Origin: Ignavibacteria bacterium | Lineage (GTDB): Bacteria > Bacteroidota > Ignavibacteria > Tepidaquicellales > OLB5 | DNA length: 64,000 nt | Assembly: GCA_017303675.1 (NCBI GenBank) | Contig: JAFLBX010000001.1 | Span: 321,970 to 385,969 of the forward strand | Direction of reading: 5' to 3' | Shown here: piece after piece, positions 4,901 through 7,080 of the stretch | Position numbering within the stretch: position 1 is the stretch's first letter | How the letters are laid out: every line of letters begins with the position of its first letter | The notes under the pieces: model-generated | Told to the model about the DNA's origin: nothing | Databases searched by the model: none | What the model saw: only the letters and a program-made list of their open reading frames with translations | Translations under genes and position numbers: made by a program

Positions 4901-5652
4901 AGGTTATTATAGATAACTTTATTGCCGCTTCACAGGATAAATGGAACCTGCCGAGCAATATTGCAATGCTGCTTCCTCATGGTCAGGAAGGACAAGGCCC
5001 GGAACATTCAAGTGCAAGGCTGGAAAGATTTTTAACTTTGTGTGCTGATGATAACATGACCATTTGCAATCCTTCAACTCCGGCGCAGTATTATTATTTG
5101 CTGCGCTCCCAGGGTAAATATAATAACAGGCGCCCGCTGGTGATAATGACACCAAAAAGCCTGCTGAGACTTCCTGAGGCAAGATCTGACAAAAATGAAT
5201 TTATCGGCGGTAAATACCGCTTAGTGATAGATGATAACACAGTTACGAACAAATCTGATATCAGGCGTGTAATACTGACAAGCGGAAAATTCTATTATGA
5301 TCTGGCTAAATATAAGAAAGAGAATAACATTTCGCATATAGCAATTGTAAGAGTGGAAAGGTATTATCCATATCCATCAGAAGAAATAAAAGCTATCCTG
5401 AAAACTTATACCAATGCCACAGAAGTTTTCTGGGCTCAGGAAGAACCACATAATATGGGAGCTTTGATCTTCATGTCATACAGGCTGAAGAGGGACCTAA
5501 GAGAACTTGGGAGTAAAATGACATTATACGGCGTCAGCAGGGATGAAAGCCCGGCTCCAGCCCCAGGCTCAAACTCTATATTTAATCAAACCCAGAAAAG
5601 ACTTCTTGCAGAAGCATTTTCAGAGATAAAAGAAGTTGTAGATGTAAAGTAG
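1951..5652 (+). CDS. Fused 2-oxoglutarate dehydrogenase E1 with E2 catalytic domain (Kgd/OdhA type)
   Basis: A 1233-residue TCA-cycle enzyme acting on 2-oxoglutarate with thiamine diphosphate. Order: a short E1-type N-terminal segment (residues 1-45, NTWFVMELLENF), a low-complexity linker (50-95), an E2 acyltransferase catalytic domain (about 100-340, ending in YDHRIIQGAESG with catalytic His312) and a full E1 domain (about 370-1233: MAHRGRLNVL, HGDAAIAGEGIVAET, NNQIGFTT, GQDSARGTFSQRH, HGQEGQGPEHSSARL). Length and architecture match actinobacterial Kgd/OdhA (about 1230 residues). There is no lipoyl domain, so a separate lipoylated E2 must supply the swinging arm. It is a single gene closed by its own terminator. 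The symbol is left empty because kgd, odhA and sucA are all in use for this architecture. Confidence 0.92.
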   Translation: MKLEDLSQEQREKLAEFGVNTWFVMELLENFVNNPNSVGKDWQDLFTGLNIETNGKIHTKNENTNGKSSVQTGTYINYTQPPVSSTPVINMPQPQKGEEAIQIKGVGEKIIENMTSSLTIPIATSFRAIPVKVLEENRLIINNFLKKTGNGKISFTHIIGWAIVKAIKSIPALNNAYTIIEGNPHLLKKNSVNLGLAVDLEKKDGSRSLIVPNIKGADKMNFRQFFDSYNDIINRSRSGKIDISDFQGTTITLTNPGTIGTAASQPRLMVGQGAIIATGALDYPAEYQAVTKDIITMLGISKVMNITSTYDHRIIQGAESGMFLQKMHKLLIGEEGFYETIFSDLNMPVKPVMWKIDNNPENFDGIDNLEEIEKQAKAIQLVNMYRVRGHLLANLDPLKPQAKYHPELDPNTYGFTVWDYDRQFITPRLAGLRTATLREILDILQKTYCENIGVEYMHIQDPKEKLWLQDKMEPIKNQPSLTAEEKKHILYKLIQAENFEKFVDKKYIGHKRFSLEGSETIIPVLDMLLSLAAAEKVDEVVLGMAHRGRLNVLANIIGKNMQEIFSEFEDISDVDSVEGSGDVKYHLGSSGVYETMYGDDINVSVASNPSHLEFVNPVVEGIVRAKQQMMNDSLKNKYIPVLLHGDAAIAGEGIVAETLNLSQLKGYSTGGTIHIIINNQIGFTTSPVDARSTVYASDVAKMVQAPIFHVNGDDPEATILVTKLAYEYRMMFHKDVVIDVYSFRRLGHNESDEPAFTQPVLYKAIRNHPTVKNIYQEKLLNEKVTDTSEIQKMETEIYDIMDKGYTKAHEREMLFKADTPIRLTDEQIKILRSNQLPEITMNDLNRIVETITTLPADFHLHPKLRKFIESRREFLNGDTKIDWSFAEALAFGTLLLEGIPVRLSGQDSARGTFSQRHIVLTDMESEEEVILHNNIAPDKAKIEPLDSLLSEAAVLGFEFGYSTADPLSLVLWEAQFGDFANAGQVIIDNFIAASQDKWNLPSNIAMLLPHGQEGQGPEHSSARLERFLTLCADDNMTICNPSTPAQYYYLLRSQGKYNNRRPLVIMTPKSLLRLPEARSDKNEFIGGKYRLVIDDNTVTNKSDIRRVILTSGKFYYDLAKYKKENNISHIAIVRVERYYPYPSEEIKAILKTYTNATEVFWAQEEPHNMGALIFMSYRLKRDLRELGSKMTLYGVSRDESPAPAPGSNSIFNQTQKRLLAEAFSEIKEVVDVK

Positions 5653-5680
5653 TTAAACATTATAATATAGATAATTAGAA

Positions 5681-5710
5681 AGGAAAACTCATAGGGTTTT
5701 CCTTTTTTTA
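5681..5710 (+). terminator. Rho-independent terminator of the 2-oxoglutarate dehydrogenase gene
   Basis: An 8-bp perfect stem (AGGAAAAC 5681-5688 with GTTTTCCT 5696-5703) closes a 7-nt loop and runs into a T tract (5703-5709), 28 bp after the stop codon. Confidence 0.85.
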
Positions 5711-5898
5711 TCTCTATGAGTCATTAAATATTATGATTGTTATCCTGTTGGTATGCTGATTAATGTTAATAATTATGTTTATTAACCGATTAAGTCATAT
5801 AACCTGTTTCGTTATTTACTAACGCTAATTAAAGCATTATTTTAGTATTGCAATTGTAGTTAAACTTAACAACCTTTACTTCTATAGAGGTAACAAAT

Positions 5899-6003
5899 AT
5901 GGAAACAGATCTAACAAAATTCAAAAAGAACAGTAACGTGTTTATTGCCGGAACAATAACCATTTTTCTTGTGATCGTAATTATTGGATTCATTTTCGGT
6001 TAA
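5899..6003 (+). CDS. Single-helix membrane microprotein A (34 aa)
   Basis: A 34-codon gene with a charged N-terminus (METDLTKFKKNSN) and one long hydrophobic helix ending in IIGFIFG. A ribosome-binding site AGAGG (5886-5890) is placed 8 bp before the ATG, and a strong terminator follows. Its helix closely matches microprotein B, 225 bp downstream: both have SN, then an aromatic or aliphatic residue, I, a TI core and an IGF-[IV]-FG end. Independent upstream region and terminator plus a conserved paralogue argue for a real gene. Function is unknown; a small subunit or modulator of a membrane complex is possible. Confidence 0.7.
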   Translation: METDLTKFKKNSNVFIAGTITIFLVIVIIGFIFG

Positions 6004-6034
6004 TAAATTGTGATCGCATGTATCCGGCAAAAAA

Positions 6035-6077
6035 GAATTCTGCTGTCTGAAACAGGGCAGCAGAATTCATTTTTTTA
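6035..6077 (+). terminator. Terminator of microprotein A
   Basis: An 11-bp perfect stem (GAATTCTGCTG 6035-6045 with CAGCAGAATTC 6058-6068) is followed by seven T residues. It separates the two paralogous microprotein genes into separate transcripts. Confidence 0.88.
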
Positions 6078-6227
6078 CAGACAAATTTAACCCTAACAAT
6101 ATTATAATTATACATATTAAATTCAATATAACTGTTTAAGGTGATTGTCCTTTGAACATTCAAATATTAATTTGATTTCAGAGAATTATACTAATAATAA
6201 CTAATTTCAGAGGAGAAATTCAGTACA

Positions 6228-6362
6228 ATGAACACGAAACAAATTAATGACAAAATCACAAATCAGCAAATGACTGAAGTTACAAAAAGCAGCAACATGT
6301 ATATCGGCACAACAATAGTAATTATGCTTGCAATCATAGTTATTGGATTTGTATTCGGTTAA
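6228..6362 (+). CDS. Single-helix membrane microprotein B (44 aa), paralogue of A
   Basis: A 44-codon gene with a polar N-terminal tail of about 20 residues, then the helix beginning SSNMYIGTTIVIML and ending IGFVFG. The helix aligns without gaps to microprotein A; the tails differ. A good ribosome-binding site AGGAGA (6211-6216) precedes the ATG and a terminator follows at 6390. Two monocistronic one-helix paralogues in tandem suggest high or differential expression. No family is recognised. Confidence 0.72.
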   Translation: MNTKQINDKITNQQMTEVTKSSNMYIGTTIVIMLAIIVIGFVFG

Positions 6363-6389
6363 GAGTGTTTTAATATACTTTTTTATAAG

Positions 6390-6418
6390 GCTCTGTTCTT
6401 GAGAACAGGGCTTTTTTT
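6390..6418 (+). terminator. Terminator of microprotein B
   Basis: A 9-bp stem (GCTCTGTTC 6390-6398 with GAACAGGGC 6403-6411, one G-T pair) with a tetraloop and a T7 tract. Confidence 0.88.
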
Positions 6419-6481
6419 ATGGAATATAATTATCCTCGATTTTCTCAATTAGATTGATTATTTTTGTTTTTTACTACATTT

Positions 6482-6556
6482 CGGGGTGTGGCTCAGCCCG
6501 GTTAGAGCGCCTGGTTCGGGACCAGGAGGCCGGAGGTTCGAATCCTCTCACCCCGA
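6482..6556 (+). tRNA. tRNA-Pro (anticodon CGG)
   Basis: A full cloverleaf can be folded: acceptor CGGGGTG (6482-6488) with CACCCCG (6549-6555), discriminator A6556, a D-arm region around GCTCAGCCCGGTTAGAGC, anticodon arm CCTGG-TTCGGGA-CCAGG giving CGG, and T arm GGAGG-TTCGAAT-CCTCT. CCA is not encoded. Two bases after the discriminator comes the TTG that opens the GIY-YIG frame, so the two are almost certainly co-transcribed. A broken copy of its 3' part lies 311 bp downstream. Confidence 0.95.
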
Positions 6557-6557
6557 C

Positions 6558-6812
6558 TTGAAGTTTTACACTTACATATTACAATCAGAAATATCAGGAA
6601 AACTCTATATTGGTCAAACTAATGACCTTGAAGACCGTCTATTCCGCCATAATTCAAACCTGTCCTTAAGTACCAAAAATAAAGGCCCATGGAAACTTAT
6701 TTTCAGTAAAGAGTTCAGTTCAAGAAGTGAAGCTGTATTACTGGAAATGAAGCTTAAATCTTTTAAAAATACTTCCAGAATTCTGAGATGGATTGAATTA
6801 AACGCAGGTTAG
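6558..6812 (+). CDS. Small GIY-YIG nuclease-domain protein directly behind tRNA-Pro
   Basis: A stand-alone GIY-YIG domain of about 84 residues, the size usual for the YhbQ/UvrC-N-like small family. Visible motifs are FYTYILQ (the GIY strand), KLYIGQTNDLEDRLFRHN (YIG strand and catalytic Arg) and PWKLIFSKEFSSRSEA-LLEMKLKSF, with Glu as likely metal ligand. The frame runs back into the tRNA, but residues before TTG 6558 are only translated tRNA sequence, so TTG is taken as start. It has no ribosome-binding site, because the tRNA 3' end lies there. The stop (6810-6812) falls on the junction with the duplicated tRNA piece. Whether it is expressed is uncertain. Confidence 0.65.
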   Translation: MKFYTYILQSEISGKLYIGQTNDLEDRLFRHNSNLSLSTKNKGPWKLIFSKEFSSRSEAVLLEMKLKSFKNTSRILRWIELNAG

Positions 6813-6816
6813 AGCG

Positions 6817-6837
6817 TCCCGACACTACGTGTCGGGA
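6817..6837. repeat. Perfect palindromic hairpin in place of the anticodon arm of the tRNA copy
   Basis: Two 9-bp arms (TCCCGACAC 6817-6825 and GTGTCGGGA 6829-6837) around a 3-nt loop. It stands between the D-arm-like GGTTAGAGCG and the variable-loop sequence AGGCCGG, where an anticodon arm would be. A degenerate relative (TCCCTACAC / GTGTCGGGG) occurs at 7004-7024. Such short GC-rich palindromes resemble dispersed intergenic repeats. Confidence 0.8.
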
Positions 6838-6868
6838 AGGCCGGAGGTTCGAATCCTCTCACCCCGAC

Positions 6869-7042
6869 TTGAAGTTTTACACTTACATATTACAATCAGA
6901 AATATCGGGAAAACTCTATATTGGTCAAACTAATGACCTTGAAGACCGTTTGATACGTCATAATTCAAACCAGTCCTTAAGTACCAAAAATAATGGCCCA
7001 GCGTCCCTACACTTCGTGTCGGGGGGAAAGCCGTCCCGATAA
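6869..7042 (+). pseudogene. Truncated second copy of the GIY-YIG gene
   Basis: It starts with the same TTG and reads LKFYTYILQSEISGKLYIGQ as the first copy, with LIRHNSNQ in place of LFRHNSNL. After 44 codons homology ends at GGCCCA, and the frame runs through the degenerate palindrome to TAA at 7040-7042 (57 residues in all). The C-terminal half of the domain, including the likely metal-binding Glu, is missing, so it cannot be a complete nuclease. Confidence 0.75.
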
Positions 7043-7080
7043 AGCGGAATCTCCTGACAATTTTGTATAATAAAACAACA

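Follow-up and report, generated by a model that had tools for sequence, protein, structure and literature searches.

Tandem units of a small GIY-YIG nuclease gene and fragments of the adjoining tRNA at bacterial tRNA genes: an apparently undescribed, widespread family of putative selfish elements

The closest experimentally studied precedent for a nuclease gene that multiplies together with a tRNA comes from T-even phages, where SegB, a free-standing GIY-YIG homing endonuclease of 221 aa, is encoded among tRNA genes and on the same strand. In phage T6, SegB drives the tandem amplification of a 718-bp tRNA-Tyr + segB unit in a manner that depends on its catalytic residues and on recombination, with microhomology between the tRNA 5' end and the segB 3' end, and this amplification defeats a tRNA-cutting defence (PMC13096335). 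Other described systems share single aspects with the locus reported here. Integrative elements and islands with attB in tRNA genes duplicate a tRNA fragment on the far side of the inserted DNA, the 178-bp tandem repeats at E. coli tyrT each begin with the tRNA 3' end and are not known to contain a GIY-YIG gene, and REP/RAYT systems combine GC-rich palindromes with a linked gene for a Y1 transposase. Among GIY-YIG proteins, single-domain size is found in the UPF0213 type (PDB 1zg2 and 1ywl), for which tRNA linkage is not known to be part of the family description, and SLX1 is a structure-specific endonuclease.

Given these precedents, we next asked how they compare with a locus in the genome of an Ignavibacteria bacterium, analyzed within a stretch of 64,000 nucleotides (the window; contig JAFLBX010000001.1 of assembly GCA_017303675.1). 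A first-pass annotation, made from sequence alone, had described a tRNA-Pro followed by a GIY-YIG gene with a TTG start and without a ribosome-binding site, and a gapless repeat 311 bp further on (8 mismatches in 163 bp) holding the 3' part of the tRNA and the first half of the nuclease gene. This observation is confirmed. The array consists of the following parts:

6482-6557 (+), intact tRNA-Pro(CGG), the only intact copy of this isoacceptor in the genome.
6558-6812 (+), intact single-domain GIY-YIG nuclease gene, with a TTG start just after the tRNA and the stop codon TAG (6810-6812) in the D-loop of the following tRNA fragment.
6807-6816 (+), tRNA-Pro fragment, nt 19-28 (D-loop and 3' side of the D stem, GGTTAGAGCG).
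6817-6837 (+), 21-nt palindrome TCCCGACACTACGTGTCGGGA, exactly in place of the 17-nt anticodon arm.
6838-6868 (+), tRNA-Pro 3' fragment, nt 46-76 (variable loop, T arm and acceptor 3' strand), identical to the intact tRNA.
6869-7000 (+), second, 3'-truncated GIY-YIG copy, whose ORF runs on to 7042 in nonhomologous sequence.
About 7000-7059 (+), second, decayed tRNA fragment with two imperfect palindromes (TCCCTACACTTCGTGTCGGGG and GTCCCGATAAAGCGGAA), resembling the doubly swapped remnants at two loci of congeners (L016 and L025).

The tRNA was identified with ARAGORN and by an Rfam scan (RF00005, 67.7 bits, 6482-6556), and the nuclease by a match to PF01541 (E=1.3e-16). The exact start of the nuclease gene is uncertain, since the frame is also open upstream through the tRNA (6486-6557, MWLSPVRAPGSGPGGRRFESSHPDL-) to a GTG at 6486, while congeners have ATG at the corresponding place. 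Automatic annotation may start such proteins inside tRNA genes, which would provide a ready marker for finding more of them in protein databases. The absence of a ribosome-binding site is not telling in this group of bacteria. The direct repeat comprises 6527-6689 and 6838-7000 (163 nt, spacing 311); its 31-nt tRNA part is identical in both copies, and five of the 8 mismatches lie at 6639-6647, within the stretch reading LFRHN or LIRHN around which the annotation had seen the changes cluster. We consider this a minor point and not evidence of a changed target, since the catalytic residues R26 and H30 (numbered from K at 6561) are kept and the second copy is truncated, covering only profile positions 1-48, and decaying (10 nonsynonymous and 7 synonymous changes in 47 codons). 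What the annotation had missed is that the stretch between the two nuclease copies is itself a modified tRNA-Pro, as shown by BLAST of the tRNA against the locus, and that a further palindrome-bearing tRNA fragment ends the array. An assembly error can be ruled out because the genome is in 2 contigs and the same layout recurs in dozens of independent genomes. A search of the same genome for further copies of the remnant returned only this locus.

The arm replacement is not restricted to tRNA-Pro. In the same genome (G000), tRNA-Gln(CTG) is followed by five or more 111-bp units without a nuclease gene (C1:1800498-1801100, minus strand, loci L074-L078), in each of which a palindrome with the same 9-nt arms as in the window replaces the anticodon arm. 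The pattern GTCCCGACAC-N(2-6)-GTGTCGGGA, the arms with the preceding G, occurs six times in the 3.65-Mb genome, always at these two tRNA arrays. In addition, tRNA-Leu(TAG), tRNA-Met(CAT), and tRNA-Ser(GCT) carry single altered copies, the last two with a GIY-YIG gene, such that 5 of the 43 tRNA genes are affected. We found 96 distinct palindromes that have tRNA sequence on both flanks and are not native tRNA arms. Of those, 73 are of the form TCC...GGA; 23 replace the anticodon arm exactly (within 1 nt), 33 lie within or around it, and 23 are located in the T arm or variable region (14 of those at tRNA-Asp). TCC...GGA palindromes also occur elsewhere in the genome, with 35 in a 400-kb sample.

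To determine how common the association is, we listed all PF01541 matches and all tRNA genes in three complete, one-contig genomes of the same class. After setting aside six UvrC-like long frames, 17 of 28 small GIY-YIG loci, several of them arrays, lie within 300 bp of a tRNA on the same strand and none near one on the opposite strand, where about 0.5% per locus is expected by chance. Among 202 distinct GIY-YIG domains in the fetched loci, 95 have an intact same-strand tRNA under 200 bp upstream and 25 downstream, with 0 on the opposite strand, and most of the rest have tRNA fragments or contig ends; however, these loci were chosen by similarity to a tRNA-linked query, so that the unbiased figure is that of the complete genomes. 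We then scanned a hand-made consensus over the GTDB contigs of 84,980 species genomes. Of the 80 best hits, 63 lie within 250 bp of a same-strand tRNA and 8 more next to a tRNA fragment (71 of 80), in Bacteroidota, Ignavibacteriota, Chlorobiota, several Patescibacteria lineages, Planctomycetota, Thermodesulfobacteriota, Fidelibacterota, Elusimicrobiota, Synergistota, Chloroflexota, and Margulisiibacteriota. Seventeen isotypes are used. Culturable carriers include Halpernia humi and Paucihalobacter ruber. Phages, plasmids, and viral contigs hold few and distant relatives (21 distant phage hits, 16 plasmid hits, and 2 viral contigs), and the one phage hit inspected has no annotated tRNA nearby, which speaks against a phage or plasmid origin.

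Two layouts were observed. Either the array lies downstream of the intact tRNA and the fragments are mostly 3' parts, or it lies upstream and the fragments are mostly 5' parts, while the nuclease always points the same way as the tRNA. Arrays reach five units: behind tRNA-Asp in genome G339 there are five 315-bp units, three of them identical, one differing by 2 bases and one by a small shift. In a further genome (G285, C1:120132-122135), five GIY-YIG copies with identical scores follow a tRNA at exactly 450-bp spacing. Despite this amplification, 112 of 114 linked loci keep exactly one intact copy of the isoacceptor. In 31 arrays of two or more units (frameshifted single genes set aside), the unit nearest the tRNA is better preserved in 16, equally preserved in 15, and worse in none.

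By every test made, the encoded protein belongs to the GIY-YIG superfamily. Residues Y5, Y16, G18, R26, H30, and E62 are invariant in 28 homologues, and the AlphaFold model (pLDDT 91) is nearest to UPF0213 (1zg2), then to SLX1, and then to I-TevI. UPF0213 is the best match in sequence as well as in fold, and SLX1 the next best (profile E of 1e-9). Homologues are under strong purifying selection, with dN/dS of 0.03-0.07 among four congeners and up to 0.19 in other pairs, although several pairs are saturated at synonymous sites; the second copy in the window is not under such selection. Compared with SegB, these genes likewise adjoin tRNA genes on the same strand and form tandem units, but they are chromosomal and occur in many phyla; the profile built here gives no hit to T4 SegB at E<=10, and whereas SegB amplification yields extra full-length tRNA-Tyr, the copies here are disabled and arm-swapped. 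Compared with SLX1, only the nuclease domain is present and no partner protein was seen. A group I intron is rejected, since the tRNA is contiguous, the Rfam scan found no intron family, and TIGR01453 scored 27 bits against a cutoff of 56. The units also differ from integrative elements in that they are about 310 bp long, hold only the GIY-YIG gene and no integrase, include 5' halves and arm-swapped copies among their fragments, and form tandem arrays. Compared with tyrT, the array has a GIY-YIG gene and palindrome-swapped arms and is not limited to one locus; compared with REP/RAYT, the linked gene encodes a GIY-YIG protein and the palindromes sit inside tRNA copies.

We next wondered whether the nucleases follow their hosts or their tRNAs. 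On a tree of 125 proteins (one per genome and isotype; 85 genomes, 19 host families), tRNA isotype needs 36 changes (shuffled mean 84) and host family 64 (shuffled 91). The nearest relative in another host family sits at the same isotype in 73 of 125 cases, against 15.5 expected. Thus, the tree follows tRNA isotype better than host family, although the alignment has only 76 columns and deep forks are unresolved, and this fidelity could reflect descent and cotransfer with the tRNA rather than target specificity. Within the genus, tRNA-Pro(CGG) beside the same neighbor gene carries an intact nuclease in congeners G002 and G005, a decayed one in G010, and only a tRNA fragment in G012; in G004 the tRNA has no unit, though its flanks could not be matched to the window. 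In four congeners (L237-L240), the tRNA-Pro plus array lies in the opposite orientation relative to the neighboring 1233-aa dehydrogenase gene (compared with window 5104-6425), so the segment was inverted in one lineage. Between this gene and the tRNA, the window holds two tandem short ORFs (5899-6003 and 6228-6362) for hydrophobic peptides of 34 and 44 aa, with 72% DNA identity over 86 nt, in a region conserved in congeners. Moreover, the 5' half (nt 1-40) of tRNA-Pro(CGG) recurs at other places in congeners G003, G008, G012, and G009 (L245, L251, L252, and L257, respectively), followed by a conserved stretch (TGATGTGGAAATGCC...AAAATCAACAAAAACC) that looks like the end of an integrative element using this tRNA.

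Taken together, we favor, with no more than moderate confidence, a selfish, homing-like unit lodged at a tRNA gene, in which a GIY-YIG gene of about 80-100 codons sits flush against a functional tRNA on the same strand, with a fragment of the same tRNA on its far side. We propose that the nuclease cuts its own tRNA gene, or hairpin-forming arms of it, in copies that lack the unit, and that repair by recombination through tRNA sequence installs the unit beside the tRNA while keeping one working tRNA; the same recombination would occasionally add tandem units, by a process of the kind shown for SegB. In this view, surplus tRNA copies lose function, and possibly the cleavage site, because an anticodon or T arm is replaced by a TCC...GGA palindrome, which may render them cut-proof or may remove harmful extra tRNAs, and units far from the tRNA decay. 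The sequences themselves demonstrate the linkage, the strand bias, the isotype fidelity, the tandem amplification, the retention of exactly one intact tRNA in nearly all loci, the arm-for-palindrome replacement, the purifying selection, and the patchy presence among congeners, whereas expression, cutting, its target, homing or any other movement, and the protective role of the palindromes are inferences. Some observations sit less comfortably with this model: the proteins lack the extra DNA-binding part usual for homing endonucleases, their profile does not match T4 SegB and their nearest solved relatives are UPF0213 and the structure-specific SLX1, the intact tRNA still carries the presumed target, leaving self-protection unexplained, and arrays without a nuclease gene exist (tRNA-Gln and tRNA-Leu in this genome). 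The first-pass interpretation, a tRNA-linked selfish unit that copies itself behind the tRNA or a trace of repeated repair, is thus partly supported, with the reading as a tRNA-linked selfish unit largely supported by its recurrence beside tRNA genes in unrelated genomes and its tandem amplification there. The two outcomes named beforehand as counting against it did not materialize, as the unit is neither found mainly at non-tRNA sites nor confined to this assembly, but copying itself remains an inference and repeated repair cannot be separated from nuclease-driven duplication by sequence.

Alternatively, though we consider it unlikely, the mobile DNA might be the TCC...GGA palindrome itself, in a REP-like system in which the GIY-YIG protein is a structure-selective nuclease (SLX1/UPF0213-like) that processes hairpins or cruciforms; tRNA arms would then simply be good hairpin targets, replaced hairpin for hairpin, and the exchange would itself be the transposing step. 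This main rival draws on the palindrome replacements, on the nearest structures, and on the palindromes dispersed elsewhere in the genome. Furthermore, six non-tRNA small GIY-YIG genes of another subfamily in this genome (L003-L007, L009, L224:9045-9450) sit among REP-like palindromes, two of them (L004 and L006) with matching palindromes on both sides, although overall enrichment is weak (5 seen, 1.2 expected). However, the nuclease follows the tRNA isotype across host families, which a palindrome-bound enzyme need not do, and the palindrome of this array is confined to two tRNA arrays in the genome. Somewhat less likely still is ordinary tandem duplication by slippage or unequal recombination, with the nuclease as a passenger or a host gene of unrelated function and surplus tRNAs disabled by selection against extra or misfolded copies. 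Arrays without a nuclease, the single intact tRNA, and the tyrT repeats fit this view, but it does not explain why small GIY-YIG genes sit at tRNAs of 17 isotypes across phyla and only on the same strand, nor the isotype-tracking tree, nor the exact arm-for-palindrome replacement. Finally, a toxin, defence, or counterdefence module that cuts tRNA or invading tRNA genes, with arm-swapped copies as decoys or immune copies, would fit the pairing of nuclease clades with one isotype and the T6 analogy but is very unlikely, since GIY-YIG enzymes with known substrates act on DNA, amplification here does not raise the dose of intact tRNA, and no PADLOC defence family covers the protein (only weak partial hits).

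Our literature searches found only the SegB paper and no description of chromosomal tRNA-linked GIY-YIG arrays, although a prior description cannot be excluded because they covered only open-access work. It is tempting to speculate, as a tentative reading that is possible but less likely than not, that these units represent a previously undescribed class of bacterial mobile element: minimal GIY-YIG nucleases, each dedicated to one tRNA isotype, that persist and amplify at chromosomal tRNA genes across many phyla by swapping hairpin arms of surplus tRNA copies for palindromes, leaving exactly one functional tRNA. The one-intact-tRNA rule and the exact arm-for-palindrome replacement pose a clear and testable question about how hairpins are exchanged in DNA. 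Small GIY-YIG proteins are abundant and mostly without assigned function. If a large group of them are tRNA-gene-specific homing or amplifying nucleases, this would give them a function, add a chromosomal counterpart to the phage SegB mechanism, offer a natural set of isotype-matched nuclease/target pairs, and explain a class of tRNA pseudogenes and odd predicted proteins that begin inside tRNA genes.
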